Positions 7,670 through 63,150 of a DNA stretch of 64,000 bases are shown one piece after another. Source of the DNA: Sabellastarte sp. h YS-2021 (lineage: Eukaryota; Annelida; Polychaeta; Sabellida; Sabellidae); NCBI GenBank assembly GCA_964017235.1, contig OZ024938.1, positions 46,784,332 through 46,848,331 of the forward strand, in the 5' to 3' direction. Below the pieces are notes generated by a model. It saw nothing but the letters and a program-made list of their open reading frames with translations. It ran no database searches and was not told the origin of the DNA. The position numbers were made by a program, and so were the translations under genes. Numbering within the stretch: position 1 is the first letter of the stretch; each line of letters opens with the position of its first letter.

Positions 7670-10600
7670 GATATTTTTCCATACTGACCATTTTCTCCCA
7701 AAATAAATGCTTTTATTATTTAGCTTTGATAGCATCTCTTGTTCAGCATATTTTTTCTTAATTAAATTTTGGAGGTGATAAATATTTAGTTGGTCTTAAA
7801 TATTTAGTTTGGTCTTGTTCTATAAAGCCTAAGATTTTATTAATTTTGTTTAGATATATTCTGATATTTATACTTGACTGGATCCAAAAAAAGAAAGATT
7901 TTCACACAGACTGATTGATTTTTGTACATTCAGATAATAAATGGGTAATTGTTTCAGAGTGTTCACCACACAGTCTACAATTGTCTGTATTACGAACGCC
8001 AAGGATTCTATGTAAAATACGGTATTTAAACCATATATACTCATTATATTCTATTGAATAGAAGCAAAGTTTATACACAGTCTTCCAAGGGATATAACTA
8101 CATTCTAGAGATAAATTTAAATTCCACTTTAATTCATTTTTTGATGTCGCAATATGACTTTGTTGAACTACCTGGTAGATATTTTTACTACCAGCATCAG
8201 AACCTAGCAGAACTTTAATATACAGTGGTATGTATGGTCTTTGAAACTAAGAGTCAGTGCCAATACAATTTTTTCCATGAATTTTTTGACAAGGCCACTT
8301 ACAATAAAATAGTTCAAGTAATTTACTTTAAATTTAATTGAGCTTTTACTTCCTCTAATGTCAGAATTAGACAGTCAGAGTTTATAATGTCCCCAATAAC
8401 ATGTATCCCATTGTGAAACCAATCTGCAAAATATTTTTTTTCAGTTCCTACAGGTTTATTCAACCAGATACTTGAGCTTAAGAGGTCATAATTTGTTTTA
8501 AACTTTACTTGGTGACAAAAATTGTTATAGTATGTAAATACTATTTTCCAAAATTGGTTCAGTTTTGCTAACTTTGATAAACACCATTGGCTTCCGAAAG
8601 AAGAAAAATAAGAAAGATTAATATTATTTAACAGCAGGTCAAGCCAACTCTTTTTATTTCCAATAAATATTTGCTTTAACCACCTCAGTTTTATAGACTT
8701 TTCAAATTTGTGTATATTTATCATTTTAAGACCCCCATTCAACTGGGTGGTACAAATTCTGTCCCTGCTAATTTTGTCTGGCTTTCCATCCCGCATAAAG
8801 TTAAACAACAATTTATTTATTTTGACTAATATTTCTACAGGGGTCGGTAGTGCCATAAAGAAATTGGTAAATATAGAAAGGATTAGTGTTTTTATAACTA
8901 TAATTTTCCCAATAGGTGTTAAATGTCTAAATTTCCAGGTATTTATAGTTTTCTTGGCCTTTGCTAAAGTATTTAGATAGTTCAAACTTGGTAGCTTTGT
9001 CAGGTCACTTGAGAAATGTATCCCTAGTAGATTAAACTGTGTATCTACCCAACATAATTTATGCGATACTTTTAGCATTCTTTTTGAAGTTACCTCACTT
9101 CCAATCCAAATTAGCTTGGTCTTTTCACTATTGATTTTGAGCCCTGAAATCTCACCAATTATCTCTAAAATGTTCAGTGCTGCTTGCAAAGACTATGGAC
9201 TGCCATCTAAAATAATGCTAGTGTCATCTACAAATTGTGTGAGCTTTAAACATGGGGTTACCAATTCCAATCCTCAAATATCTGGAGATCTTTTAATAAG
9301 ACAACATAAAACTTCTGCTATGAGCAAAAACAAATATGGAGCAATTTGGTCACCCTGTCTGCAACCATGCTCAACACGAATAGGGGCGTACAAAAAAACC
9401 ACATTGGGTTACATATGCCATAATATCGGTATTGAACAATGTTATCCATTTAAGAAAGTTGTCGTCAAAACCATATGCTTCTAGTACATTGTACAAGAAT
9501 TTCCAGGATACCGAGTTAAAAGCTTTCTCAAAGTCTATTTGCATGAGTAGCCCAGGGGTATTGTATTTCTCAGTGTAAAACATTAAATCATATATTAATC
9601 TTGTGCAGTCACCAATACACCTGCCAGGTAGAAACCAGATTGATGTTCACTGATATTATTCAAAAATGGTTTTATTCTTTCTGTAATAGCTGAAGATGCT
9701 AATTTAAAAATGACACTAAGAAGTGATATTGGTCTCCAATTTTTAATAAGCTTACGGTCCTTATTGATTTTAGGTATGCAGGTAATAATATCTGGGCTCA
9801 TAGAAGTACTTAAAATTCCCTTGAAATAACAGCTGTTTATGGCATTGGCAATAACAAATTTAATTTTCCCCAGAATACTTTCACAAAATAAGCTGAGATG
9901 CCATCTATGCCAGGTGATTTATTATTAAGGACAGCATCCAGCTCTGTAGCAGATATTTAGTGTCCCAACTGAACTTTGGGAATGCATTTTAAGTTTGCAT
10001 GGGCAATCTCTCCTTTTGATTATAGTTTTTAATATTGCAATCTCTTGATTTGAACAGATTGTGGTTAAAATTTTGGACCTCTTTTAGAATAGTTTTTTGG
10101 TCAGATATTACCACACCAAATTTGTCTTGAACTTTTTTCATTGTTTTTTTTTCAGTATAATATTTTTTTCAACTTACAGAAAAAAGAGACAAAATTACTT
10201 ATAGACACTTTTATTTCAAGTTGCATTTTTATCTCCCGCTGGCCCAAGTTAGGAGATTAGGAAATGTCTTCTATGCATGTGTGCATTTGTAATTTCTTGA
10301 ATGATCAGACCGGTAACTCGGTTTAATATTACATGAATCAATCATATCTATCATTGTATGTGAAGTGAGAAAATAATCAAGCCTAGCTTGCTTTAACGGA
10401 TTTTTTTTTCTCCGTGAGAAATGTTTAACATTATTATTCAGATAGCGAAATGAATCAGTTAAATTCAAGTCATTCATCATTTGAATAACCTTTGATCTTG
10501 CTCTTGGGTTATTAATGTTTGTATAATTATGACAGTCAATAGAATGGTTAAGGACCAGGTTAAAATCACCACATATCATCAGATAGTCAGCAGTTTTATT

Positions 10601-11013
10601 CTGTGATAACTGCAAAATATTCTCAAAGAAGTTTGGACTATCTCTGTTTGGAGCATAGATATTAAGTTTAAAAGTGCCAAAGTTAATCAAGAGCTGAAGT
10701 ATATTTCCGTCTTCATCCTTGAAAGTATCTAACATGTCATATTCAAAATTATTATTAATGAGGGTTATTACACCACAAGAGTTTGTTTTGCAACCATTTA
10801 GATAGCAATCAGGCCAAATTTGCCTGATAGAGGAAATATCGCTTTCTAATAGGTATCTTGCAGGCACACAACAGATGCTTTAGTATTCTTAAGGTAACTC
10901 AATACATCAATTCTTTTATCATAACTTCGAAGCCCCTGACAATTTGCAGATAACACAGTGATTTTGTCTGGCAATAGTGTTTTTGATTTATTATTCATAA
11001 GCACTGAGTCCAT
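7670..11013 (-). pseudogene. L1/Tx1-like LINE ORF2, nearly full length but broken
   Basis: On the minus strand a start at 11,013 leads into an APE-type endonuclease: ANCQGLRSYDKRIDVLSYLK, then after a frameshift near 10,865 GVITLINNN, YAPNRDSP, CGDFNLVLN, ARLDYFL and a final SDHS. A linker NNKSPGIDGIS lies near 9.9 kb. RT motifs follow: IPKINKDRKLIKNWRPISLL, IDFEKAFNSVSW, a GQGDQIAPYLFLL stretch and catalytic FVDD near 9,230. The thumb/C-terminal part (288 codons) runs 9,189-8,323. The C-terminal zinc motif CRLCGEHSETITHLLSEC is near 7,940-7,990. Several stops (for example around 9,205 and 9,285) and frameshifts make it inactive. It is the same clade as the relic at 1.44-3.33 kb but better preserved. 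Confidence 0.88.
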
Positions 11014-33000: not shown

Positions 33001-35636
33001 GATTTCAACCCATCTCTAAAGCGTATATAATCTCCCTTCACTTTGCATATATGTTTTACTTTGAGACATGGAAACACGGCATCCCCATGTACCAAGTCGC
33101 AAGCTTCACAATTCCCTGTCCAAGGTGATTTTGACACGTCTTCACGAGTTATATCATCTGAGGCATCTAGTTAATAATATTTAAAAGCACACAAGATACT
33201 TTTTAAGGATTGAAAAGTTGAGATTTGAAAACACATTTCATGTTTAAAATGTTACCATCATAACTATATAACCTTTAGAGAAAACCACTAATTTGGTGAC
33301 CAATTCTCCATTCCCTTCTTTTAATATATATTGTACACAAAGTGCTCTTGGGCATATGATTAAAATTTAAACTTTCTAAAAATGGCTTTTATTATTTTCA
33401 TCATGTCTACAGCAATTATTAGCAACAATTGAAAAACATACTTACTTTTAACTGGATGTTGAAATGGAACATTAACAGTGTTGGTCTTCAACTGGGACAC
33501 ATCTTTCTCACAACACTGAAATTCATTTACACCTGGTCTACTACCAGATGCCTCGTTTTCTGCAATTTCTTTGGCCTTCATCTTGGAAGGATCCTCGGGG
33601 CAGTCCTCCAATGCTGCATTACCTTGATCATGGCCTGATTTACTATTTACATATTCACCTGATGTGTGACGTTTTTCCCCAACACTTGCTTCCATCTGAC
33701 TGTAATCATGGCCCAAACCAGGATTAGAATTAATAGAAGTGCGACAATCTGTATGGACAGATAGATTATCACTTGATTTGGCATTTGTTTCTTTAGCTTG
33801 CAAGTGAAACTGGAACTCTTGGTTTTCGTCATCTGGAGGGCCCATTACAACCATACCAACTATCAATGGAACTAACGTTGGTTTGAAATGCTGCTGTGTG
33901 ATGTTGAGGGCTTGAAGATCCAGACATTCTTTGAGCCACTGAAATATATGTTGCTGTTTCTGAAAATAGTTATGTCTCCTGTCAAATGTCTCCTTTGTGG
34001 TTGAAATAAGACATAAGATATACTTTGGAAAACAACAAGCCTAGTATAATTATAACACTATTACATGGGTGAAGCAATTTCCATTTTGGTCAATGTAAAT
34101 GCAAAACAATATTTTTATGTTTTAAACTGTATGCAGCAACAAGTGACAAGAATGTCAAAACATACAATCGGTCAGAAATAAATACAAAAAAAACTTACCA
34201 TGGACATATCCCTTTGCGGAGCATTGGATGCTTCAGAAACAGTTGCCTCTGTCTCTGAAATTATTATGTAAGTGAACAATATGTGTTACACTTTGTTAGC
34301 AAATATTATATAGCTTTATGATTCAAAACTTTTTAAAAAATCTCAAATTGAACTTTATGCAAAAGTTTGTGGCACTGAGATATTTTTCTAACTGAAAAGC
34401 AATGTAACCATTTGAATGGCACGTATCTCCTTTACAGTACTAGTGCCTGTCCCAGCCAAAGTATCAGTATGAAATTTGGTACATCAGAATGAGCAGTGAA
34501 AATGATATATGGGAAGATAAAGGAGTTGTGACTCAAGCCTTGAGCTTCATCATGCCAAAGGTATATACAAATGATGTTAAACTATATGCTGACAGGTCAG
34601 ATGTATTTTGGTACCATTATCAAAGTATAAATACAAGTATTATTAATTTACACAACATCAGTGCATCACTTGGTACTCATGAAATTCAATCATGAACCAA
34701 TGTCACAAAAGTGTTGAGGGGTGGTAACACTCTCGCCTCCCACCTCTGAGGCCCGAGTTTAGTTCACGGCTCTACCTCAAGTGGGAAAGCTGGTAGTTGT
34801 TTGCCGTTGGTCTGCAGTTTACAGTACAGAACCTTGACCAACTGTATGTACTGGTTTCCTCTGCCCTTCCAACTACTCGTCGTGATATGACCTGTACAGT
34901 GTTGAAAGTAACGTAAAACCCCAAATAAACAAACAAACAAACACAAAAGTACTGGGTGCAATTGAGATTTTTGAATGAAATATAGGACAAATTTATTTGT
35001 TACAGAAAAAATAACTCAACAACATATGTCGTTTGCTACAAATACAAAATATTTATCATGTTCAGTTATATTCATTTAAGTATTTATATGTATTCCTTAC
35101 CTTCATTTGTGTGGTCGTCTTCAGGTACAGAGTTATGTATTGTTGTGCTTTCAACGACACTAGATGGATTGTCTTCATTGGCACAAGACAATAACCTGCA
35201 AAATGCATTGTTTAAGCTTCTTGGGTTTTTGGGTGACATCAAAGCACCAGATAGCGACCTGTGTGGCAATCCACTCTCCTGATTGATATACTTACCAGAA
35301 GAAGACCTGGAAACAGAATAAAGAAAGTCTTATTGATACAGATGTGTATATGCTATACTCTCTCTTTCTTGTTCTCTAAAAACTGGTGATTGTTAAGCAA
35401 ATATGTTTTGTAAACAACATATACACGGTTTCTTTGTCTTTGGAAATTTCAAAGGAGCAAAATGCAAAAGTCTGAGGGGAAAAATACTTGGCAGAAGATA
35501 AGTCAACAAGTTTATCATACACATTGCCATCGCCAGTGCTGTTCTCAGAAAAATCCATCTCACTCTCTTCAAATCCTTTGGTTGAATGCTGTCTGACGCT
35601 TGCAACAGATGTAAGTTTTATTTGTAGAATACTCAT
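15051..35636 (-). CDS. Divergent protein kinase-like gene, 17 coding exons, 3' end not found
   Basis: Exons on the minus strand, 5' to 3': 35488-35636 (ATG at 35636; exon acceptor at 35652), 35101-35306, 34199-34254, 33446-33992, 32970-33157, 32063-32176, 31474-31509, 30779-30905, 30325-30423, 28929-29021, 27277-27437, 25266-25431, 24877-24911, 24115-24160, 19001-19104, 17797-17911, 15051-15109. Coding length is 2301 nt, 767 codons, with every splice phase matching and no stop. All introns are GT-AG except the one after 28929, which is GC-AG. The product is probably an intracellular protein with a C-central kinase fold (about residues 388-650); no signal peptide is seen. The start is the first ATG of its exon and has an in-frame TAA upstream if the exon ending at 37,257 is used. 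The kinase family is not recognised and no symbol is given. The terminal exon was not found. Confidence 0.82.
15475..17790 (+). repeat. Right copy of the large diverged direct duplication
   Basis: Matches 4,352-7,475 in order and orientation from ggttgcatgtgctgca to the atgttaaacatcaactttgtc block. It lies inside the intron between exons 16 and 17 of the kinase-like gene. It is shorter than the left copy because it lacks two blocks of about 430-450 bp. Confidence 0.8.
18590..18893 (+). repeat. tRNA-derived SINE, third type
   Basis: A B-box-like ggggttcaatccttg lies near 18,650. Downstream are gcaacaggctggcatcctgt near 18,771 and the end cggcccaatggacgacttta with ccgttacctta. I recall this body and tail as a widespread animal SINE type, but cannot name the family. 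It lies in the intron between exons 15 and 16. Confidence 0.6.
20272..21229 (+). pseudogene. Harbinger MADF/Myb-like accessory protein, decayed
   Basis: The first open part (20,272-20,514) encodes a MADF/trihelix-like DNA-binding domain: DSDEEAIVDFVKNHEELNN, KECLWKRFASSRIQ, then VEACKT followed by UGA where Trp is expected, and FESQRTPHWKLRKSS in the same register. Further frames give MDQF and DFQTFKKVALKYLS. A Gln/Pro-rich tail (FHQSQQPGPAANES, SRGQQQPRGQ-like) runs to about 21,229. In the family this protein helps the transposase bind DNA. Several breaks are present. Confidence 0.75.
21960..23205 (-). pseudogene. HARBI1-type Harbinger transposase, decayed
   Basis: Minus frames give, in order: a basic, Ser-rich N-terminus with RKRRKLANPWAMTW; FWKPLEVGLKLAITPTHLAT and LQYHWLVGQATICKFVPKFC; the region LDDKHMVMIKPKKSGR with the first catalytic Asp; FSLVLLAVLHAEYRFLWVDV with the second; and then CDNAFAFMLWFLKPYSR, VVENA (the catalytic Glu region) and a C-terminal NEQVVYVPD stretch. 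Together these identify the DDE nuclease of PIF/Harbinger. Multiple frameshifts and stops, mainly at 22,560-22,650 and below 22,270, show loss of function. Confidence 0.85.
25197..25246 (+). repeat. Short tandem duplication next to exon 12
   Basis: The 20-mer tacaacgcttggtgcctaaa occurs twice, about 26 bp apart, just downstream of the exon 12 donor. Confidence 0.8.
25582..26392. mobile_element. MITE with terminal CCCAGTAAACATT and internal AAACGTTT palindromes
   Basis: The 13-bp left end cccagtaaacatt (25,582-25,594) is perfectly inverted at 26,380-26,392. The interior is non-coding and packed with AAACGTTT-like palindromes (near 25,597, 25,690, 25,768, 25,804, 25,958, 26,283, 26,347 and 26,360) plus many half sites. 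No target duplication is obvious. It lies in the intron between exons 11 and 12 of the kinase-like gene. The superfamily is not assigned. Confidence 0.7.
26889..26937 (+). repeat. 24-bp unit repeated twice
   Basis: The unit gataatgtttttcactata plus gatt occurs twice head to tail, then diverges. Confidence 0.85.
28424..28850 (+). repeat. Diverged tandem repeat carrying X-box-like palindromes
   Basis: Three units of roughly 130-160 bp share this order: a CCATGGYAAC-like palindrome region, accaaaacc/cagctctag(t/a)tcctct, gaaaatccatgta-like, tttaggctctggaacaccca-like and taagat. The second unit has attgccatggcaac (28,576-28,589) and the third gttcccatggtaac (28,714-28,727). The first has a degraded form. 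It lies in the intron between exons 10 and 11. Confidence 0.65.
29270..29871. mobile_element. hAT-like MITE with GGATTTG arrays
   Basis: The ends are inverted copies of cagggttggggtca (29,270 inward; 29,858-29,871). Flanking 8-bp sequences acagagac (29,262-29,269) and acacagac (29,872-29,879) differ at one base, fitting the 8-bp target duplication of hAT elements, as do the CAGGG termini. The interior has many ggatttg/caaatcc motifs in both orientations and no transposase. It lies in the intron between exons 9 and 10. Confidence 0.8.
32757..32910 (+). repeat. Degenerate cluster of TGTACAAG / TTGCAR motifs
   Basis: Within 150 bp there are about seven variants of cttgtacaag/cctgtacaag/cttgtgcaa interleaved with gttgca/attgca. 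It is a degenerate minisatellite or foldback remnant in the intron between exons 5 and 6. Confidence 0.55.
32970..35636 (-). other. N-terminal exons 1-5 of the kinase-like gene (residues 1-382)
   Basis: Residues 1-137 are polar and Ser/Asn/Glu-rich, likely disordered. Exon 4 (547 nt, residues 138-319) opens with an aromatic, possibly helical segment (RRHNYFQKQQHIFQWLKECL) and a hydrophobic run LVPLIVGMVVMG, then turns into a Ser/Asn/Glu/Lys-rich linker. Exon 5 holds a Cys/His-containing stretch (NCEACDLVHGDAVFPC, then KVKHIC) that could bind a metal, but it fits no standard zinc finger that I recognise. A family-1 SINE sits in the intron between exons 2 and 3. Confidence 0.7.
34713..34941 (+). 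repeat. tRNA-derived SINE (family 1), 5' truncated
   Basis: Begins within the A box (gtggtaacactc), has the family body and ends in ccccaaataaac with (AAAC)n. A 9-bp direct repeat cacaaaagt flanks it (34,704-34,712 and 34,942-34,950). The B box is mutated. It lies in the intron between exons 2 and 3 of the kinase-like gene. Confidence 0.88.
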
Positions 35637-40300: not shown

Positions 40301-40797
40301 GGACTCACTGCACAAAGATGTGTGACTTAAGCATTAAAGATTATTCTGTTTCTGTCTGAATATGACCCACAGTGTGGATTGAGATGTAAAACCCTAACAT
40401 TGAGCTACTGCAGAGGTCATACATTTTTGCACTTTGAATATATGTGAACAGCTTCTTGATGTACTGTAACTGTGTGCAATTCCAATAACTGAGGCAAATA
40501 CTTTGAGTTACTGTTAGAGGGTTGTATAAAGCCTAAGGAGAGACTAGTATGAAACATTCTTGGTTGTGTAAATATGTGATCACCTTCCAAAGAATGAAGG
40601 CATAAAAATAGGGATCAAAGTTCAACTAAGAAAAGAGGTTAAGAACATCTCACTCTAAACTCACACCAGCATACAAGGACAGTAGCCAATGAAACAAAGC
40701 ACAAAATGAAATAGGTTATTTCATTAAAATAAAGTATTTCAACTGTTCTGCCGATTTTATATGTTGTAAAGCAACAGTTACTGTATAGGCCACGTTA
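37331..40797. other. Intergenic stretch; only weak open frames
   Basis: A 97-codon plus frame at 38,643-38,936 and shorter ones at 38,970-39,249 have hydrophobic C-termini and no recognised motif. None has matched splice sites. Three copies of an agaaccacaagtatttttt-like unit occur at 38,529-38,615. A short plus frame at 40,168-40,359 follows an acceptor-like ttttacacag and is doubtful. No RNA gene is seen. Confidence 0.4.
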
Positions 40798-41015
40798 GGG
40801 GCCACAATGACGCAGTGGTAACATAGTCGCATCCCACCTCTGCGATCAGAGATTGAATCCCGGCCTGACCTCATGTGGGAAAGCCGGTAGTTGCTTTCCG
40901 CTGGTTGGCAGTTTACAGAACAGAACATTGACCAACTATATGTACTTGTTTCCTCTGGCCTTCCAACTAGCCATCACAATGTAACTAATAAGGTACTAGG
41001 CATGGCATCAAACAC
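40798..41015 (+). repeat. tRNA-derived SINE (family 1), variant subfamily
   Basis: Carries gcagtggtaacatagtc (A box region) and a B-box-like gattgaatcccgg, the common body, and a different 3' end (aataaggtactaggcatggc). The same 3' end occurs in the interrupted copy around 62.7-63.15 kb, which marks a subfamily. Confidence 0.8.
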
Positions 41016-41136
41016 TTCATAAATAAATTTAAAGGCCATGTCAGCTAGCCAAGTACAAGGTCTTGGTGCTTATTGCACTATGGTTTTCTGAGAGAATTTC
41101 CATCTGAAGTACTTACAGACCTCTTAACTTTATAGT

Positions 41137-41270
41137 ACGTTTGACCTCTTTTCTGTCCCTTGATACTGATACTAGTTGGCTGTTTTTGTGCTGTTGGGCT
41201 TTAGAGTCCCCTTTGAAGATGGGAGATTAAGCGCTATAAAAGTCCAATTATAATTGCATTAAGAATTACA
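41137..41270 (+). repeat. 3' tail of the CR1/L2-like LINE family
   Basis: Shares gttggctgttttt, ttagagtcc, and gggagattaagcgctataa with the LINE 3' UTR at 11,240-11,395, in the opposite orientation in this window. Only the 3' UTR is present, so it is a severely 5'-truncated insertion. Confidence 0.7.
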
Positions 41271-41444
41271 GTGAGAGTTTAAAATCCAGACTGTTATAAA
41301 ATGCACTCATTCATTGAGTCATAAAAATGCACTCATTCATTGACTCTTGCTTGGACTTGTAAGCAAGTCTAAGGCCATGGGTATTTGCACTTTGATACAT
41401 GTGAAAGAGCTACTGTTGTACTGTAACTGTGTACATCATAGATT

Positions 41445-41589
41445 CAGTTTCTAGAGGTCGTAGATTAAAGCCACAAGGTCAGAATAATGTAAGCTGCTGA
41501 GTGTTTGGGCATATTTTATTTTACATGTTAGTATATGTTTAAAATATAAAGTTTGCAGATTTTATGGATGAAATCTGAAAAACCACCAA
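41445..41589 (-). repeat. Split direct repeat B2 (3' terminus)
   Basis: 145-bp copy of B1. Its last bases on the minus strand (ctagaaactg) are followed by flanking DNA; this is the downstream end of the element. Confidence 0.9.
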
Positions 41590-41784
41590 TCACAATATGC
41601 TCTCTGATAAAATGAATACAACTCGTGTAAAAGAACCTGATATCACATAAAATAATAAAAAACTGTTACAACTAGTGAACATAAAAGAATTAATTTTATT
41701 TATTTGGCAACTAGTACCCAAACCCATGCACCCCATCATAATACAATCGTTTAGCCTGCTGGACGTGGGGGTGGGACTGGAGGG

Positions 41785-41988
41785 CTCTTTTTAACTTCTA
41801 TCTGTAACCTTGTATGTCCTTCGATTGCAGAATCCAATATGATGGACCCTATCGTTTCATACGCTTCATGAAGCGTGAAGTGACCTGCTATTGGTGGAGA
41901 ACTACGAACCAGAACAGCAATAGTAAATTCTATTAAGGTCGACCATAAACTGACTGGACAGGCCCCTATACAGGCCGTGTCGTACACA
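41785..41988 (-). repeat. Split direct repeat A2 (internal)
   Basis: 204-bp copy of A1, directly abutting B1 with a 2-bp overlap. The palindrome is at 41,861-41,876. The B1/A2 junction should equal the junction of a circular intermediate. Confidence 0.9.
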
Positions 41989-42131
41989 GTTTCTAGAGGT
42001 CGTAGATTAAAGCCACAAGGTCAGAATAATGTAAGCTGCTGAGTGTTTGGGCATATTTTATTTTACATGTTAGTATATGTTTAAAATATAAAGTTTGCAG
42101 ATTTTATGGATGAAATCTGAAAAACCACCAA
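41987..42131 (-). repeat. Split direct repeat B1 (internal)
   Basis: 145 bp, identical by eye to B2. It starts just after the recombinase stop and runs into A2. Confidence 0.9.
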
Positions 42132-42144
42132 GCGCCAATCCGAG

Positions 42145-43095
42145 CTAAGATGAAATGACCTTGGCAAAGGTGAGAGGGATAATGGAGGGGGCCACAGATG
42201 CGTTTTGCAAATACTGCCATACCGCCGAGCTCCGCCACAACCCGTGGGCCATAATGTGTTGGAGCTGAACATTATTATCAAATGCCATGGTAGCTCCAGA
42301 TCTTCTGAAGGAATGAAACCCATGCCCTCTAATAGGAATGTGTAAATGGGTAAGGACGGTTTTCAATGCCGCTCTGATGGTGGTGTCTATAACCACGGTA
42401 TAAGGAGAATTTTTGTGAACGAATAAGGGAGCTTGAGGATGGAGGGGTCTGGACTCAATCAATTCCTTGATAGCCCTGACAGGACATAGTCGGGGATTTT
42501 TAAGGTTTGGAATCTGAACAAAGTGATGGGCTGATCGATCTTGCAAGGTTTTTGTCCATTTCAACAGAATATGGGCCCCTGGATGAAGGAACAATACGTC
42601 CTGACGGAGAATGTGGCGGTATGGATCAAAAGCCGCCTTGGAATGGGGGGCAATGTTTGACATGCGCAGAAATGCAAAGAAAGCTATTAAAAAGGCAGCT
42701 CTGAAGAGGGGGGGGTCTGAGAGAATGTCGCAAGCCGCCGAAATAGAATGCATCATATTAATATCAAACACACCTCTGACTGTTGGGGAATAGGTGAAGT
42801 TAATTTTTATACTCCTAAGATACGCCCCCACCAGGGGGCTCTCTAAAGGGGCTACGTCCCAGTGATAATTTTTTGCCATGAATGTTAAAGATGACATGTA
42901 ATTTAACATGACCTTATGAGAAATCTGATTGATGAACAGATATTCAAGAAAAGTAATGATGGAGTGAATTGTGAATTCCAAGGGTAAATCCATAAATAAC
43001 ACAAATGCCAGGTAAGTGGAGAAGTGGACTCTATGAGAAGCCCTGGTGGATGGTCTGTATGCTATCCTGATTCTGTGAATTGCTGCTTCTGCCAA
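42145..43095 (-). CDS. Tyrosine recombinase ORF3 of the Ngaro-like element
   Basis: 316 codons counted from a TTG at 43,095; the frame is open 18 codons further upstream (to a UGA near 43,152) with no in-frame ATG before about residue 35. An N-terminal SAM-like core-binding region begins at AYRPSTRASHRVHFSTYLAF. Catalytic residues are all present: Arg144 in AFLRMSN, His261 and Arg264 in HGFHSFRRSGAT, His284 in AHGLW and Tyr295 in VWQYL. It would integrate a circular DNA form without target duplication. It lies in the -1 frame relative to ORF2 and overlaps its end by about 15 nt. Confidence 0.9.
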   Translation of the reverse strand: MAEAAIHRIRIAYRPSTRASHRVHFSTYLAFVLFMDLPLEFTIHSIITFLEYLFINQISHKVMLNYMSSLTFMAKNYHWDVAPLESPLVGAYLRSIKINFTYSPTVRGVFDINMMHSISAACDILSDPPLFRAAFLIAFFAFLRMSNIAPHSKAAFDPYRHILRQDVLFLHPGAHILLKWTKTLQDRSAHHFVQIPNLKNPRLCPVRAIKELIESRPLHPQAPLFVHKNSPYTVVIDTTIRAALKTVLTHLHIPIRGHGFHSFRRSGATMAFDNNVQLQHIMAHGLWRSSAVWQYLQNASVAPSIIPLTFAKVISS

Positions 43096-43130
43096 GGCAT
43101 TGGAAGGAGCTCCCAGATTTCGATCTACAA

Positions 43131-45830
43131 TTATATATGCAAGGTCAAGTCAAAATAAGAGTGGAAAATCGGTTCCCAATGATAATTTTTGACTAAATGC
43201 TTCAATATATTTTCATCCACCAATTTATTAGAATGTATGCGAGATAAAGTATCAGCAATCCTATTTTCTTTACCAGCAATGTGTTCAATGATTAAATGAA
43301 CATCATATATTGCTGTGTAAAGCCAAATATTCCTTATGCACAGTGCCAGAAAAGGGTCCCTAGTCTTGCCATTTTTGACCACCTGGACAACGCTGTGATT
43401 GTCACAAAAAATTTTGACGCTTGAATGACGCCAGTGTTGACCCCAAACCCTCAAGGCCAACAAGACATTGAACATCTCCAGATGTACGATTGTTAGAACA
43501 AAGCCTGGTATCTCCCTCACTGGAGTCGCATATACACGATCTCTCCAGACTGCACCCAACCCAGTAAGGGATGCATCCAGGAATAGTGACTGGGTGTCAT
43601 CGACCGCGTTCTTTTCAATGAAGGTGATCCCATTGAATGAAGGGAGAAACTTAATAAACCAGTCTATATCTGCGTGAAAGGCCTTGTTTAAATAAATTTT
43701 TTGTTTATGACTACCTTCCCTAAATGTGGCCAAAATCCTATTAATAAACACTCGAGCCGGTTTCACTATCTTCTGTATGTATAAAAGTTTCCCCATCAAC
43801 GCCTGAAACTTGTTTTTAGACAGGTATTTTTGACCCCTGACCTTAACACACTCTGCATAAATATCCTGTAATTTTTCTTCGTTTATGGCCATTGTGTTAC
43901 TATCAAGATCAATGTCAATGCCCAAATATGTGAGGCGTTTGGTGGGGGGGGTGAGCTTCGCAATATTCAAGGGGAGGCCCAGCTCTTGCAACAGTGAACA
44001 TAATTTATCAAAAGCTACGTCTGCTTTAATTTTAGGTAAAACCGCTACATAATCGTCTATGTAGCAGTGAAGATTACAATAATCTCTCATGAAGTAAGCT
44101 ATGGAGTCTGATAATAATTGGAACGAAGCTGTCCCGAAGATCCAGCCGAACGCGACCGACTTATCCAGATAAAAACTGCCCTCCCACTTAATCCCCAACT
44201 TAAGGGCATCGACTGGGTCTACAGGTAGATTCCTGAAGGCTCGGGCCACATCTATTTTAAACATAACTGGGTCTTCCTTGATACTAACAATGTCTTGAAC
44301 AAAGTCATCAATAGAAGGTAGTTTCAGTACTAAAGGAGTACCATCAAATTTTTCTTTAGTTACCTGATCATTTAATGCATTACCCTGGGGGAATGAGAGG
44401 TCCATGATGACCCTTCTACTATCCCCATCCTTGGGTCGTGACATTAAAGGTGAACAGTGGAAGTCTTTAGAATCCACGCTATCAACAGGACCCAGCATGG
44501 CCCCCAAACTAATTTCTTTGTTCAAGTACTTCTGTATATCTTGTGGATACTGTCGAGCCGAAAAATGATTGGATACCTCTTGGTTATGCAACCTGTCTGG
44601 AGATATCAGGGACAGAGGGAAGCCAAATTTTATGTATTGAATTAATCTGTCATCTGGATAACCCTGCAATTGTCGCTCCCAAGCTGGGATATTCAGGCCT
44701 GATATCAAAGGAATTCTTGCCATGCGATAGTTAGGTAAGTTTGTATTCCTTATGATTGTTCCTATTCTTAAGCACTTATCTATCGAATCTATGGCTACAG
44801 GCAAACGATCCGGACCAATGAATCGAAAATCTGTACTGTCCAATGCCAGATGACCCACCTTCTTGGTTCGTATATTATAATCCGACAGATCGTGGTTGTT
44901 ACGCGGATTAACCCGAACGCGCTCCCTAATACAAGTCCCCATCTTGTCCTCAACAATACCATCAGTCAATGGTTGTGATTCGACCTTTATACTTTCATCA
45001 TCACTTTGTACATTAATATTTTCCATCTGATGTATAAGACCATCAATTACATACTGCATATATTTCACATACGAGCAACCATGGCGCTCCCAAGCTATTT
45101 TTTCTCTCATATATTCCCAATAGGCTTGCTTTGCCTCCTGCTTCAAATCCTTTGTGATAAACTGGAATTTTGAATCAGTTCGTATTAAAAAATAACCCCT
45201 TCCTACGACTTCCATGTACTGTTCAATATCCCTGTGCAAAATTTGTAATCTTATATCTCCCTTCTCCTGAAACCACCAGAAGAAACCCTGGAGGTCAGAT
45301 CCCTCTTCTCCATCTATATGCAATAGCTGCCGGTGGCGTTCGCCATGGTTACTCACAATGCGAAGCACAGTGTATGGTATACTATCGAAGTTTACCATCT
45401 GACTCCCCCACACTTTTGTTAGTTCTTCCCATGGCCCGTCCATGGAGATGGCAGCAAAGGACAATCTCAACTCACCCCAGGCATCAAAAACCCGAAATTT
45501 TTTGAACTCTGGTGCCCGACCATCACTGCTGCCACCCCCCTGGACAGCCCCAGACAATATATCATGCTGTAAATATTTAGCATTGTTCATATTACCGTAA
45601 TACATATTTTCACAACCATTATCATAAGCATTAGTATCATTTTTACACTCTTGCTTATTAACTAAATGCATTCTGTTCATATAAACACCACTTAATTGTT
45701 CATTATTGTTATCTTCATTTAATTTAACTTTATTGTCTGTAACTTTATACACATAGCTCTGTTTTGTCCTTGATTGTTCATTATTGTTATCTTCATTTAA
45801 TTTAACTTTATTGTCTGTTACTTTATACAC
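43131..45830 (-). CDS. Reverse transcriptase-RNase H ORF2 of the Ngaro-like element
   Basis: Open for 899 codons from a GTG at 45,830 (first ATG 45,680) to UAA at 43,131. RT motifs: VIMDLSFPQGNALND, VMFKIDVARAFRNLPV, GTASFQLLSDS, and catalytic CYIDDYVAVL near residue 588. RNase H: LFLDASLTG (near 750), a Glu in VHLEMFNVLLAL, IFCDNHSVV, and the final Asp in NRIADTLSR (near 860). It ends 40 residues later with no methyltransferase or integrase. About 490 residues before RT have no recognised fold. Residues 1-45 include a tandem duplication of 26 codons. The real start is uncertain: the frame is open back to the gag UAG, only 17 codons before the GTG. Confidence 0.88.
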   Translation of the reverse strand: MYKVTDNKVKLNEDNNNEQSRTKQSYVYKVTDNKVKLNEDNNNEQLSGVYMNRMHLVNKQECKNDTNAYDNGCENMYYGNMNNAKYLQHDILSGAVQGGGSSDGRAPEFKKFRVFDAWGELRLSFAAISMDGPWEELTKVWGSQMVNFDSIPYTVLRIVSNHGERHRQLLHIDGEEGSDLQGFFWWFQEKGDIRLQILHRDIEQYMEVVGRGYFLIRTDSKFQFITKDLKQEAKQAYWEYMREKIAWERHGCSYVKYMQYVIDGLIHQMENINVQSDDESIKVESQPLTDGIVEDKMGTCIRERVRVNPRNNHDLSDYNIRTKKVGHLALDSTDFRFIGPDRLPVAIDSIDKCLRIGTIIRNTNLPNYRMARIPLISGLNIPAWERQLQGYPDDRLIQYIKFGFPLSLISPDRLHNQEVSNHFSARQYPQDIQKYLNKEISLGAMLGPVDSVDSKDFHCSPLMSRPKDGDSRRVIMDLSFPQGNALNDQVTKEKFDGTPLVLKLPSIDDFVQDIVSIKEDPVMFKIDVARAFRNLPVDPVDALKLGIKWEGSFYLDKSVAFGWIFGTASFQLLSDSIAYFMRDYCNLHCYIDDYVAVLPKIKADVAFDKLCSLLQELGLPLNIAKLTPPTKRLTYLGIDIDLDSNTMAINEEKLQDIYAECVKVRGQKYLSKNKFQALMGKLLYIQKIVKPARVFINRILATFREGSHKQKIYLNKAFHADIDWFIKFLPSFNGITFIEKNAVDDTQSLFLDASLTGLGAVWRDRVYATPVREIPGFVLTIVHLEMFNVLLALRVWGQHWRHSSVKIFCDNHSVVQVVKNGKTRDPFLALCIRNIWLYTAIYDVHLIIEHIAGKENRIADTLSRIHSNKLVDENILKHLVKNYHWEPIFHSYFDLTLHI

Positions 45831-45850
45831 ATAGCTCTGTTTTGTCCTTG
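45695..45850 (-). repeat. 78-bp tandem duplication at the gag/pol boundary
   Basis: Unit starts at 45,695 and 45,773, two copies differing at very few positions, each 26 codons (core DNKVKLNEDNNNEQ). It keeps the reading frame and lies between the gag UAG and the first pol ATG. Confidence 0.9.
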
Positions 45851-45878
45851 CAGGTTGTCCAGGTGATCCTGCTGGCTC

Positions 45879-47156
45879 CTACCTTGCTGACACTGCCTTG
45901 ACCTCTTGTGATCTGACGTTCACACGAAAACTACATTTAAATTCTGGATGTGATGAAGTACGACCTTGTTTGGAACACAAGGAACAAATATGTCTGTAGA
46001 TACCGTGGTTACCTTCATTGCTGCACGATCCCTCATTGTAAAATTTGCAAATACGACTCTTCTGTCCGAAGGAAGACACATTCTGACCATTCATGACTGC
46101 AATTTGAGAGGAACTGACACGATTCAGGGCCCATTGTGTGGTATCATGCCATTGAAGCCTACCTTCCTCAACCTCTGTCATTGAGACAGCCCAGGCGGCC
46201 CTCACGGCTGGCCACGGCAAGGCTACGGAATCGTTCAGTGCCAACATCATCTGCTTGAGCACATGTCGCAGCAAGGTGTTATCGTCGATTTGCAAAGCAT
46301 TATTGAGCTGACCTACCGCCCACTGTTGCAGGTTCATCTCATCAAATGCCGGTTTCTTGCTGTTTGAAGAGGACACAAAGCCCTCATTGGGCCACCTCAC
46401 CTCAGGTCTACCCACTGGCATATCTGTTATATTATATCTACCAGATTTTTTTCTATGTAGAAAGCCCTTACCTTGCAGAACATCATGGTGTGATTGTGTT
46501 TCAAACTGGGCCAGAAGGTCAGAAACCGTGGACGCCACGTGAGGCATTGCCCTCAACCGCTCCAAACTGGGGACAATCGCGTCCTTGTCGTAGCCTCGCC
46601 TCTGCTCCTGCTCTGCTGGTGGTTTATAATTCCCAGGATATCTACTGTCCCGTGACTGAGGATGCAGTGAAGTTGGTGCTGGCATTCCTTCCCTGGCTGG
46701 CCACTTATAAGCATTAAGTAGGCTCGCATGAGGAGTGAGATCTCCCAACTTCTGAGCGCCAGGCGATGTGACCTTGGTCTGTGGTAGTTTGAAGGTCACA
46801 TTGTCCCTAGGTCCCGACTGAGGAGATGATGCTGGGGTTGAGGTGATAGTATTGTTCCGCTCCAGTCTTTCCAACCGCTTCATAACTTCCGAGTTTGACT
46901 GCTCCAGCCGGGCCAACACACTCAGTACTGTGTGATCTACAGAAGTTGACGACGCTGCTACAGTATGGGGCGGACTTGCTACAGAAGCTAACATGGATTG
47001 ACTATCGTCATTAAGGTACGAACCGTCTTTGCTATTCACCAAGTCCTTACTCTTGCCCTTTTTCACAGCCCCATTCTTCTTATTCTTGCCTGGTACAGGA
47101 GTTGCCTTCTTTTTCTTAGTCGTAGTTAATGGTGACTTCTTACTAGAAGCAGGCAT
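45879..47156 (-). CDS. Gag-like ORF1 of the Ngaro-like element
   Basis: 425 codons from ATG at 47,156 to UAG at 45,879-45,881. The N-terminus is very basic (PLTTTKKKKATPVPGKNKK), followed by a Ser/Thr/Pro-rich region with a short Leu-containing segment (VLARLEQSNSEVMKRLERLE). A Cys/His cluster near residues 370-408 (C-x7-C, H-x3-H, C-x2-C, then H-x4-C) is a putative RNA-binding zinc knuckle. By family analogy the product would coat element RNA in a ribonucleoprotein particle. The next ORF continues in the same register after the single UAG. Confidence 0.85.
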   Translation of the reverse strand: MPASSKKSPLTTTKKKKATPVPGKNKKNGAVKKGKSKDLVNSKDGSYLNDDSQSMLASVASPPHTVAASSTSVDHTVLSVLARLEQSNSEVMKRLERLERNNTITSTPASSPQSGPRDNVTFKLPQTKVTSPGAQKLGDLTPHASLLNAYKWPAREGMPAPTSLHPQSRDSRYPGNYKPPAEQEQRRGYDKDAIVPSLERLRAMPHVASTVSDLLAQFETQSHHDVLQGKGFLHRKKSGRYNITDMPVGRPEVRWPNEGFVSSSNSKKPAFDEMNLQQWAVGQLNNALQIDDNTLLRHVLKQMMLALNDSVALPWPAVRAAWAVSMTEVEEGRLQWHDTTQWALNRVSSSQIAVMNGQNVSSFGQKSRICKFYNEGSCSNEGNHGIYRHICSLCSKQGRTSSHPEFKCSFRVNVRSQEVKAVSAR

Positions 47157-47217
47157 TCTTTTGATTTAAAAACAACTAAAACAACTAAAACCATAAAATA
47201 ATTTGATTTTTCATTCA

Positions 47218-47421
47218 CTCTTTTTAACTTCTATCTGTAACCTTGTATGTCCTTCGATTGCAGAATCCAATATGATGGACCCTATCGTTTCATACGCTTC
47301 ATGAAGCGTGAAGTGACCTGCTATTGGTGGAGAACTACGAACCAGAACAGCAATAGTAAATTCTATTAAGGTCGACCATAAACTGACTGGACAGGCCCCT
47401 ATACAGGCCGTGTCGTACACA
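47218..47421 (-). repeat. Split direct repeat A1 (5' terminus)
   Basis: 204 bp, identical by eye to A2. Starts (minus) with tgtgtacgacacggcctg. Contains the 16-bp perfect palindrome acgcttcatgaagcgt at 47,294-47,309. It is open in the register of gag, but begins at GTG and ends at UGA (47,211-47,213), so coding is doubtful. Confidence 0.9.
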
Positions 47422-50170
47422 CTTACCTAAGGACATTATAGCTATCGATCATACACACCCCCAAACTTTACAAATCATTATTTGTAACTGTACTTCAGCT
47501 CTTCTACATTTAGGAAGACATTTGTTTGTGTCTGTACCACTTTCCCTTGTGCAACAAAGTGAATAACATTACAGATTAAGGTTAAAGTGAATAACAATTG
47601 TAAAGGTGCTGTGTAACACCTCGTTTTTTCAAGCATCTTAAATTTTATCTTTACTTACTCACTTAAGGTGAATAATAAGATATACAGAATGTATTTTACA
47701 TGTTAGCTATGTATCTAATTTCTTTGGGAGAATACAAAGGTAAAATTGCATTCAAATATTTGTACTGCCCCACTCAGGAACCTTAGAACTTGTGTATCAT
47801 TATTCTGGCAATTGATGTCAATGTATAATTCTGCAGTGGCAGTATTTACAACAGCTAGTGTGTATCTTGTACATCTCAACATATCATGTACACATTTCAA
47901 TTAGTCAGCCAGTGCCACAATAGCTTTTTAATTGAATATATTTCTTTGTGTATAAAAAGTAACAGGAAAGCATGACACAAAAGTAGTGGGCTTACTGTGG
48001 AGGAGAGTAAACCCCGCCAAACAAGTACATTGACAATGGTAACTAATACTCATCAGTGTTAAGGTGGACCTGAATGACACGAGTATTTTTTTCTGCAGAC
48101 TTCCTCAACAATGATACCTTGAAAACTTTCTCTGTCGACATTAGTTTAAGTTCTCACTTAAGTTTTAAGCACTTTGAGCTTAAGTATGAGCCTACTAAGA
48201 GGGTGACTTAGAATTTGTTTTCACTTTATTGGTGTGTTTTTCTCAGAAATCTGAAAAAAAGTTTGTTTGACAGGTTAAAATCTCAAAAGGGTTTTCTTCT
48301 TTTTTGTAAGTCTCAGTCATCACAAAATCTCTCAGACATGAAGTAAAACTCAGCTGGTGTTTTGCCTGAGACTTTAAGACAAAGCCTGCAAATGAATAGC
48401 AAAATTTTTGTACCTAAGGACAATCCTTTACTATGGTCTTATGGATAAGAAGAGAGATTCATTTAAAGGGAAAAATAAAGTTTCTTTGAATTTTGATTGG
48501 GGTAAATCTAAATTAGTATTATTAAGAATTAATACTGACTCGGTTAAAATTACTCAAAAACAATATAAATAATGCTCTGGATAATGCTTAACTACAGCTT
48601 TAAAATTGACTCCTTTTGTTGAGATAATTACTCTGAAAAGTTTGGTACTGTCCAAATTTATTCATATTTTTAGCAACTCCCTGTCTTTTAAAAAAAAAAC
48701 ATTTATTCAAAGATTAAACCCCACATTTCATTCATTTTCTTTAAAATAACGACCAAGATTAAACAAGATACTGTCTGTTTTTGCTACTTTAAAGGTAGTT
48801 TAAAATGGTAAATATACATGAACTTATCAGATCATTGAAAATAGGTTCAATGGGAGAATCATTTTTCTCGGATTCAATTCCAGTGGTTGGTATTAAGAAA
48901 AAAAAAGTATGGTAAAATTGACAACTGCTGTTTTGAAAACCAATGGTAGGTCACCCTATTTTCAAAAATAACAAATATTTGTTGGATTGTTGTGATAAAA
49001 GATAGCAATTACTGTGTGGAAAACATCATTGTTGTAGACACCCTGATATTATAAATAATTGTCTTTGGTACAATGCCAAGATTTATAAAAGAACCTCTTT
49101 TCCTGCAAATGGTGTGAAAATGAAAAATGTCGGTTGGAGATACAAGTGAGGCAAGTGGTAAAGTAGGTCCCATTGAATATCTAAAAATGTTATATTTTCA
49201 ACATTAACATGTTACAATTGCAGGTGGCAATTATTCTGTGTGTATTTTTATCTTAAAGAATATCAAGAAAAAGAATGAACATTTGTAAATTTCAATGTCA
49301 GTGGCTCACTTTCTAGGGTATTCTCTCTTAATGAATCCACCGCCAGATTTATATTCCGTAAGTGTTGAGATTATTTCAAGTTTATTTATTTACAGCAAAT
49401 TACACTCATGTTTGATTCTAGATAGTTTTTTTTCCTTTGCAGACGTCAGCACCCTCTTAGTGTTCTTATTCACAGTTGTAAATAACAAACAACTTGTATC
49501 TATGATACAGTATTATTACCAGTAACACTTCTAACACCAAAACTGAGCACAGCAAAAATGCTGCTTGTGTCAAAACAATAAAAATCAAACAAGCCACAAG
49601 GGACACTTTTTTACAAGAACACTAAACAGCTAAACCCATTTCAGCCACCCTTGGTTCATTATATCACCCAGTGTTCACACTCGGATGCACAGGTGCACTT
49701 TGTAGTATTAATTTGAGCTATCGACACTGTGAACAGAAAAAAAAGCATTGGGCGATATTAAGGCACTCCTTGTTGTTGCTGCAGACGACATTTCTCCTTT
49801 AATGGCGCGTAAATGAATTCTCGCCACACAAACTTGAACTGTGGAGTGGCAGAATGGGTAAAAGGGGAGGGGGAGAAAGATGTATGGTGAAGGCTGTGGG
49901 TTTGTGTGTTAATGTTTGAGTGTTTTCTCTTTGGCCAATAAGCTCAACTCTTTTTGAGTGCTGGCAGAAGTGGGAAAAGGTGACTTTGACTGTGTTTGGT
50001 TTTTCTCACCCCTTCCTTCAATGGGCAGGGGATGGATAATAATACTAATAATTTACAACAACACAACTTGATAAATGTAGTGGTCAGGGAACTGTTATAA
50101 GATGTACAATATATTTATTGAATACATGTACTACAGAGGGTGCACATGATTATTTTAAAGTGAGTTGTTT
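47422..50170. other. Intergenic stretch without recognised gene
   Basis: A/T-rich with no protein-like frame over 80 codons. The part 49,670-50,030 is less A/T-rich and less repetitive (for example gcgatattaaggcactcc and aatggcgcgtaaatgaattc). It resembles conserved noncoding DNA in texture only. Confidence 0.4.
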
Positions 50171-50350
50171 AAGTGGATATGTTTATTATACACAATTAAT
50201 GGTTGAAATACAGTACTGTATATATGATGGTGTTAATTTTCATTCATATTATACACAATTAATGGTTGAAATTAAGTGGATATGTTTATTATACACAATT
50301 AATGGTTGAAATACAGTACTGTATATATGATGGTGTTAATTTCATTCAGT
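50171..50350 (+). repeat. 103-bp tandem repeat with inner 24-bp repeat
   Basis: A 103-bp unit starts at 50,171 and recurs at 50,274. A sub-unit ttatacacaattaatggttg occurs three times (near 50,185, 50,249 and 50,288). Confidence 0.85.
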
Positions 50351-50972: not shown

Positions 50973-51213
50973 TTTTTATTTATTTATTTATTTGGGGTTT
51001 TACGTCGCTTTCAACACTGTACAGGTCATATCACGACGGGTAGTTGGAAGGGCAGAGGAAACCAGTAGATACAGTTTGTTAGGGTTCTGTACTGTAAACT
51101 GCCGACCAACGGCAAGCAACTACCAGCTTTCCCACTTGAGGCCGTGCCGGGAATCGAACCCCGGCCTCAGAGGTGGGAGGCGAGAGTGTTACCACTCTGC
51201 CACCGTGGCCCCT
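50973..51213 (-). repeat. tRNA-derived SINE (family 1), near-complete, with target duplication
   Basis: Reverse-oriented copy: tail (ATTT)n and ggggttttacgtcgctttca at left, body, then B box gaatcgaacccc and A box gttaccactctgcc at right. A 12-bp direct repeat cctttagtataa flanks it (50,961-50,972 and 51,214-51,225). Well preserved, so relatively young. Confidence 0.92.
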
Positions 51214-54102: not shown

Positions 54103-54321
54103 AGGGGCCACGGTGGCAGAGTGGTAACACTCTCGCCTCGCACCTCTGAGGCTGGGGTTCGATTCCCGGCATGGCCTCAAGTGGGATGCTGGTAGTTGCT
54201 TGCCGTTGGTCGGCAGTTTACAGTACAGAACCCTAACGAACTGTATGTACTGGTTTCCTCTGCCCTTCCAACTACGTGACCTGTACAATGTTGAAAGCGA
54301 CGTAAAACCCCAAATAAACAA
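54103..54321 (+). repeat. tRNA-derived SINE (family 1), near-complete, with target duplication
   Basis: Head ggggccacggtggcagagtg, B box ggttcgattcc, family body and tail aaccccaaataaac. A 14-bp direct repeat tcataatagaaagc flanks it (54,089-54,102 and 54,322-54,335). A small deletion lies before the tail. Confidence 0.92.
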
Positions 54322-54335
54322 TCATAATAGAAAGC

Positions 54336-62712: not shown

Positions 62713-63150
62713 TGGTTACACACTTGCCTCCCACCTCTGAGATCAGAGTTCAAATCCCGGCCTGACCTTATGTGGGAATGCTGGTAGTTGGTTGGCAGTT
62801 TAAAGTATAGAACCTTGACCAACTGTATGTACTGGTTTCCTTTGAGCTTCTAACCATACATCACAATATAATTGATAATTTATTTATTTATTTGGGGTTT
62901 TACGTTGCTTTCAACACTGTACAGGTCATATCACGACGGGTAGTTGGAAGGGCAGAGGAAAACAGTACATGCAGTTTGTCAGGGTTCTGTACTGTAAACT
63001 GCCGACCAACGGCAAGCAACTACCAGCTTTCCCACTTGAGGTAGGGCCAGGAACCAAACCAGGACCTCCGAGGTGGGAGGTGAGAGTGTTACCACTCTGC
63101 CACCGTGGCCCCAATATAATTGATAAGGTACTAGACATGATGTAAAACAG
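62713..63150 (+). repeat. Older family-1 SINE (variant subfamily), interrupted by a younger one
   Basis: The 5' part (62,713-62,878) has acacacttgcctcccacctc, a B-box-like gttcaaatcccgg and the body. After the inserted element it resumes with attgataaggtactagacatg, the same 3' end as the copy at 40.8 kb. Confidence 0.85.
62879..63112 (-). repeat. Younger family-1 SINE nested in an older copy
   Basis: Reverse-oriented, near-complete copy flanked by a 14-bp direct repeat aatataattgataa (62,865-62,878 and 63,113-63,126) that derives from the host SINE. Confidence 0.92.

Follow-up and report, generated by a model that had tools for sequence, protein, structure and literature searches.

How does a retrotransposon that depends on a tyrosine recombinase (YR) make its pol and recombinase proteins, when both genes lie downstream of gag? 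This question is raised by a 64,000-nucleotide stretch of the annelid Sabellastarte sp. h YS-2021 (assembly GCA_964017235.1, contig OZ024938.1, positions 46,784,332 to 46,848,331; hereafter the window), which carries a Ngaro-type element on its minus strand. The parts of the literature consulted say little on the matter. We compared the window element, as reference copy, with other loci of the same host genome (1.79 Gb, 647 contigs), which are labeled here with L-numbers. The comparison points to a recently active element in which Gag-Pol would probably arise by readthrough of a UAG codon and YR from a spliced RNA, with probable -1 frameshifting in relatives outside its clade.

In all 21 window-family copies gag ends in TAG and pol goes on in the same frame, as it does in all six loci of a subfamily that is 95-97% identical. 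The same single-TAG, same-frame junction recurs in L049 and L050, whose gags are about 37% identical to that of the window, and in L070, a blind test picked by the likeness of its YR to L040. L040 is the YR gene of the L050 element and L043 that of the L049 element; in a midpoint-rooted YR tree, in which the junction of L038 is unread and that of the L039/L047 group is read only via its sister L037, they group with the window in one clade (100/100) that excludes the seven other rows. Past the TAG the pol frame runs open until its first ATG, at codon 67 in the window, 29 in L049 and 73 in L050, and by eye these three loci, unlike L070, have a P-x-G motif after the TAG. Several observations weigh against so simple a picture. 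L049 and L050 are decayed, with an in-frame TGA in the L050 gag and a shift of frame in the L049 pol; L070 is closely related to L040 (71% over 70 YR residues) and not fully independent; and two of the three blind gag/pol loci were unreadable (L071 is without gag, and the sequence of L072 stops short of the junction). Downstream of the TAG, RNA folding with a model that lacks pseudoknots gave nothing unusual (z-scores -0.57 to 0.93).

More distant families carry another signal near the end of gag. AAAAAAC is found there in all six junctions read (L058-L063, contig C1), in five of them in gag phase (A_AAA_AAC), and a -1 frame of 196-323 amino acids is open to the end of the piece in L058, L060, L061 and L062. 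L063 is decayed, as is L059, whose gag stops just before AAAAAAC. A hairpin 3' of the heptamer stands out in L061 and L062 (z -5.4 and -3.3) and is weaker in L058, L059 and L063 (-1.4, -0.6 and -1.7). Among the four stems that can be aligned, both partners change in two of 12 pairs and 91.7% of cells pair, against at most 52% in slid versions. The heptamers, with a hairpin in most, are likely -1 ribosomal frameshift signals, and relatives outside the window's clade would then probably produce Gag-Pol by -1 frameshifting instead. On the other side of the balance, the -1 frame is read as the beginning of pol although the fetched pieces gave no homology match to pol, L060 has no hairpin after AAAAAAC (z 0.02), and the covariation is suggestive only, since it comes from four sequences and 63 of 500 shuffles equal it. 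Two recoding strategies, UAG readthrough in the window clade and -1 frameshifting in its relatives, would be the simplest reading of these junctions. As a separate observation, the gags of distant families (L061:36-998, L060, and L051 on the minus strand) start by eye with a Cys-Cys-His-Cys motif, which the window-family gag is without.

The recombinase gene poses a different problem, as loci differ in the frame that it has relative to pol. The constant feature is a T-rich YAG, in phase 1 for YR, at the point where the conserved YR region begins. We surveyed the window and 26 loci, of which L031, L032 and L036 have no readable YR start; in the 24 readable loci the aligned YAG is always present, and its phase is 1 in 23. 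For six of the 24, fetched only once the idea had formed, the test was blind. Near-duplicates among the loci lower the number of independent families, by eye to perhaps fifteen. In an alignment of eight YR rows this border ranks first for YA/G (the slash marking the border) among 326 codon borders, with six of eight rows matching and YA/G one column off in the other two; the next-best border (5/8) is at an invariant aspartate. The 17 listed sites have no AG between -15 and -3, and T makes up 54% of positions -18 to -4. Scored as splice acceptors, 13 sites rank 2nd to 22nd of the 135-184 AGs of their locus, which is a good rank, and none ranks best.

Unspliced RNA would thus be read for Gag and, by occasional UAG readthrough, for Gag-Pol, while an RNA spliced to the acceptor at the end of pol would yield the recombinase; comparison of the loci suggests these steps. 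Some results speak against a spliced YR. The blind-test locus L068 has its acceptor out of phase and its frame broken, and the window site is the weakest of the 13 scored (22nd of 152 AGs). Seven relatives (L029, L037, L039, L043, L044, L047 and L048) could start YR without splicing, because an ATG lies early in frame, at residue 3 to 24. A candidate donor near the gag ATG (Table 1) and a second at +106 from it were considered; equally strong phase-1 donors occur in 981 of 2000 codon shuffles, and as this control shows such sites to be common, the donor was dropped as evidence. All families compared, moreover, come from one genome.

The alternative that survives best is an ordinary Ngaro whose three open reading frames (ORFs) are translated independently, through reinitiation or internal initiation, and in which the common gag/pol frame and the YAG at YR are both incidental. 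ATGs do lie inside the window's pol and YR (codon 67 and residue 53), several relatives have the early YR ATG just described, and Ngaro ORF layouts vary: the available text of PMC3783388 has the YR ORF of fungal Ngaros either sharing the frame of the reverse transcriptase-RNase H (RT-RH) ORF or not, and the sections of PMC9210276 used here describe overlapping ORFs in Xenopus Ngaros. Against independent translation stand the pol frame, open between the TAG and the first ATG in window, L049 and L050, and the P-x-G motif after the TAG in these three; the YAG is kept at the nucleotide level while the encoded residues vary; and a start at residue 53 would cut the N-terminal domain of the window YR. 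We therefore consider independent translation unlikely.

Pol itself might instead come from a spliced RNA, as proposed for YR, with the gag stop TAG as its 3' splice site. Indeed, all TAG-type families read, and L058, L061 and L062 as well, have TAG as their gag stop. As an acceptor, however, the TAG ranks only 66 of 114, 149 of 248 and 120 of 266, with no pyrimidine tract in the window, so that pol is unlikely to be a spliced product; splicing would not require gag and pol to share a frame, and the distant families show a frameshift-like signal instead. This explanation we hold to be very unlikely.

Production of YR by a -1 frameshift where pol ends has slightly less to recommend it and is highly improbable. 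It would suit the window, L037, L039, L040, L047 and L048, where pol and YR share 19 nt, YR lying in the -1 frame; the overlap is 55 nt in L043 and 118 nt in L044. In L041, L045, L030 and L029, however, YR opens only after the pol stop, across a gap of 65-105 nt, and in L038 it lies in frame 0 to pol; the feature held constant is the phase of the YAG. A reversed second gag about 650 nt past YR in L038 and L039 was set aside as an unusual layout: it is probably a neighboring or nested element, because it was not found in the sister copies L037, L047 and L048.

The copies of the element elsewhere in the genome bear on its age. At least 40 genomic places, window included, match the 3' end of the element (40 of 139 first-look candidates scored), and at least 40, window included and all at 98% or more, match the YR gene (40 of 722 scored); given the numbers of first-look candidates, both counts are lower bounds. 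Comparison was made with the 20 top-scoring of the 39 other scored places, which biases estimates of youth and intactness upward. All 20 match along the element at 99.2-99.9% and both ends are present in 19, which excludes a chance origin of the structure. In 19 copies the longest alignment to the window has 99.4-99.9% identity; L022 aligns in two pieces (99.2 and 99.5%), and L020 misses its first 224 bp, A1 included. With the window counted, all 21 copies have an open gag, pol has its 915 residues in 19 (L022 is 26 codons shorter, yet open; L023 is broken) and YR its 334 residues in 18. A 78-bp duplication in the pol N-terminus looks young or variable, because the unit is single in the six subfamily loci and, judged by length, also in L022.

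The mean pairwise difference among the 20 copies is 0.39%, and their within-copy comparisons (A1 with A2, B1 with B2) show two mismatches and one 2-position gap over 6,940 bp in all. Nonsynonymous and synonymous variants number 15 and 17 in gag, 29 and 35 in pol and 9 and 12 in YR, broken or shortened copies being left out (two for pol, three for YR). Pooled, the 53 nonsynonymous and 64 synonymous variants give a ratio of 0.83 against a neutral 2.89, that is, 0.29 of the neutral value. All three frames are under purifying selection, and the copies therefore stem from lineages that kept all three proteins under selection. Together these data support a young element recently active in this genome.

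Insertion sites add to this. The element ends in TGTACG and AAACTG, which meet at the B1/A2 border as AAACTG/TGTACG. The 5' flanks of the 20 copies show T at -2 (19 copies), G at -1 (12), C or G at -3 (18) and A at -4 (13), and targets thus resemble the junction core. In a comparison of the 20 joined flanks with the window and with other flanks, two aligned across the join. L017 is inserted in a tRNA-derived short interspersed nuclear element (SINE), of which ten paralogues, seven of them inside the window, read across the site, one with a 10-nt gap 5 nt past the join and three with a single gap. L026 is inserted in a tandem repeat whose adjoining units on either side show the unbroken site. 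Both sites read ...CTG/..., with no target duplication past the TG core. The L017 target is a member, elsewhere in the genome, of a repeat that by eye resembles a tRNA-derived SINE and has window copies at 1050-1262, 34721-34933, 40815-41027, 50978-51212 (minus), 54120-54332 and 62878-63112 (minus). Following known Ngaro biology, element RNA would be reverse-transcribed and the split repeats would let a circle form with the B.A junction AAACTG/TGTACG; the recombinase would then insert this circle at short core-like targets (A-C/G-T-G), with no duplication past the TG crossover. The original prediction had judged recent or current mobility plausible and had proposed a search of the host genome for further copies and empty sites: copies were found as described, clean empty-site paralogues exist for L017 and L026, and recent mobility is supported by the match counts, the low divergence and the near-identical repeats.

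The recombinase carries its characteristic residues: R162, H279, R282, H302 and Y313 are invariant in the eight aligned rows. With E values up to 1 allowed, six of these rows match PF00589 (best 1e-6) and seven match Phage_int_SAM_4 (best 8.2e-9), and the window YR protein alone reaches no Pfam recombinase family. Pol and YR had no match among solved structures; the YR alignment had a single one there (E 0.73), which was judged meaningless, and an AlphaFold model of YR from the single sequence was uninformative (predicted local distance difference test, pLDDT, 34.6). The gag protein, which has a basic N-terminus and by eye a C-terminal Cys/His zinc-finger-like motif, matches nothing in Pfam.

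By anatomy the Ngaro identity is near certain. Every anatomical feature we looked for is present: split direct repeats, RT and RNase H, an R-H-R-H-Y recombinase and insertion with no target duplication. This agrees with the original prediction, made from the sequence alone, of a Ngaro-like element with a complete A1-ORFs-B1A2-B2 plan, uninterrupted gag, RT-RNase H and recombinase frames, and intact catalytic residues. Its finer points needed some adjustment. The A and B copies, given as identical over 204 and 145 bp, are equal at every base (204/204 and 145/145), and two of the 204 are the TG core, present in the circle junction too, which leaves 202 bp for A proper; likewise the extent of 41445..47421 ends properly at 47419, the last two bases being that core. 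A 195-bp spacer between A2 and B2 was missing from the description, so that the order on the minus strand is A1-gag-pol-YR-B1A2-spacer-B2; AATAAA signals lie near 41700, inside the spacer. No further frame above 93 amino acids was found in the element.

The lack of a methyltransferase, which had been taken to separate the element from DIRS and PAT, stood as an observation and less well as a criterion. No methyltransferase or DDE integrase was matched by Pfam in the three ORFs, and a Dam methyltransferase model found nothing genome-wide (all 82 first-look candidates scored); according to the available text of PMC3783388, the Dam Pfam profile does detect the DIRS methyltransferase. The part of PMC4157794 at hand indicates that methyltransferase loss occurred more than once, and the family name therefore rests on anatomy. 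For a wider view, YR relatives were sought with the pattern H-S-F-R-R-S-G-A-T, the window family's own codon excluded, which gave 338 genome matches against none in a reversed control. All 20 pattern loci read encode YR relatives, and pol was found in 17 of them, with pol and YR frames at most 0.4 kb apart. The 338 places also show that the host holds a large and diverse set of other tyrosine-recombinase retroelement families. Searches with the pol protein and the YR alignment among viral contigs, and with the YR alignment among prokaryote genome contigs, gave no confirmed relative. Least likely of all the alternatives is a PAT or DIRS lineage with secondary methyltransferase loss, of the kind that PMC4157794, in its accessible part, suggests for Caenorhabditis briggsae, for 40500-48500 holds no inverted repeats of at least 30 nt, the Dam model matches nowhere in the genome, and pol and YR lie close together in the 17 loci.

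Table 1. Features of the window element, acceptor-like sites of its relatives and other repeats of the window. A slash marks the proposed cut or border.
Feature	Position in window	Strand	Basis or remark
Whole element, 5975 bp, TGTACG...AAACTG	41445..47419	-	Repeats and copy boundaries
TG core at 5' border (target/junction crossover)	47420..47421	.	Copy boundaries, empty sites
A1 repeat, 202 bp (204 with TG core)	47218..47419	-	Identical to A2
gag, 425 aa	45882..47156	-	Open in 21/21 copies
Candidate splice donor CTA/GTAAGA, 13 nt past start of gag ATG	47138..47146	-	Donor scoring
Single in-frame TAG, then G, between gag and pol	45879..45881	-	21/21 copies and relatives
pol, 915 aa, gag's frame, first ATG only at codon 67	43131..45878	-	Open-frame reading
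Tandem duplication, 78 bp, in frame, pol N-terminus	45691..45846	-	Sequence comparison
Reverse transcriptase domain, RVT_1 6.8e-9, YIDD	43914..44384	-	Pfam
RNase H domain, RVT_3 1.7e-4	43239..43478	-	Pfam
YR open frame, 334 aa, no ATG before residue 53	42145..43149	-	Open-frame reading
Acceptor-like site ATATAATTGTAG/ATCG at pol end, phase 1 for YR	43125..43143	-	Comparison of loci
Acceptor-like site, L040: ATATAATTTCAG/GA			Comparison of loci
Acceptor-like site, L043: TTTAATTTCAG/GT			Comparison of loci
Acceptor-like site, L044: TTTAATTGCAG/GT			Comparison of loci
Acceptor-like site, L038: TTTTCTGTAG/GT			Comparison of loci
Acceptor-like site, L041: TTTGTTGTAG/AT			Comparison of loci
B1 repeat	41987..42131	-	Repeat comparison
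B1/A2 border, circle-junction sequence AAACTG/TGTACG	41987/41986	-	Repeats and ends
A2 repeat	41785..41986	-	Repeat comparison
Unique spacer between A2 and B2, 195 bp	41590..41784	-	189-199 in other copies
B2 repeat	41445..41589	-	Identical to B1
Decayed long interspersed nuclear element (LINE) endonuclease fragment	10271-10879	-	Exo_endo_phos_2 4.3e-5, under Pfam cut-off
More of the same LINE, by eye	8323-9192		No Pfam match
Identical 71-bp direct repeat, spaced 103 bp	50169-50239 and 50272-50342

Altogether, a young family with dozens of near-identical matches and diverged relatives in one genome yields three testable predictions: UAG readthrough, -1 frameshifting and a spliced YR. In the parts of the literature consulted we found no UAG readthrough, frameshift signal or spliced YR stated for Ngaro, the founding Ngaro papers being outside this scope and a prior description possible.

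Among known systems the closest is the Ngaro superfamily, with Xenopus DIRS-53_XT and the Cafeteria Ngaros (PMC9210276, PMC8547959, in the sections available), which share the A1-ORFs-B1-A2-B2 plan and the set of gag, RT-RH and YR with no methyltransferase. Repeat sizes are similar (A 236 and B 152 in the Xenopus Ngaro, A 204 and B 145 here). The window element differs in its A2-B2 spacer and in having no SGNH hydrolase ORF, which Xenopus Ngaro families carry; a single-TAG gag/pol junction and a YR acceptor go unmentioned for Ngaros in those sections. PAT elements likewise combine split direct repeats with a tyrosine recombinase, and differ in their methyltransferase domain. DIRS1-like elements share RT-RH and the tyrosine recombinase, whereas their inverted terminal repeats and methyltransferase were not found in the window element; a DIRS1-like sequence is inferred, in the available text of PMC4495291, to have brought a splice acceptor and a polyadenylation signal into two mammalian genes.

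A broader comparison reaches beyond this group. It is an evenly balanced proposition, drawn from sequence comparison, that Ngaro retrotransposons may have a full retrovirus-like expression program, with clade-specific gag-pol recoding (UAG readthrough in the window clade, -1 frameshifting at A_AAA_AAC with a hairpin elsewhere) and with the integrating enzyme made from a spliced mRNA, perhaps as a fusion to the basic N-terminal leader of Gag. Retroviruses use either gag-UAG-pol readthrough or -1 frameshifting, and express a third gene from spliced RNA. The gammaretrovirus type differs from the window element in that its downstream gene is env rather than a recombinase and in the structure 3' of the UAG, of which no signal was detected here, and no kinship is claimed. 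What the two would have in common is gag-UAG-pol in one frame followed by a spliced third gene. If so, gag-pol recoding and third-gene splicing arose, or were kept, also in a group of retroelements that use a recombinase and have no integrase.

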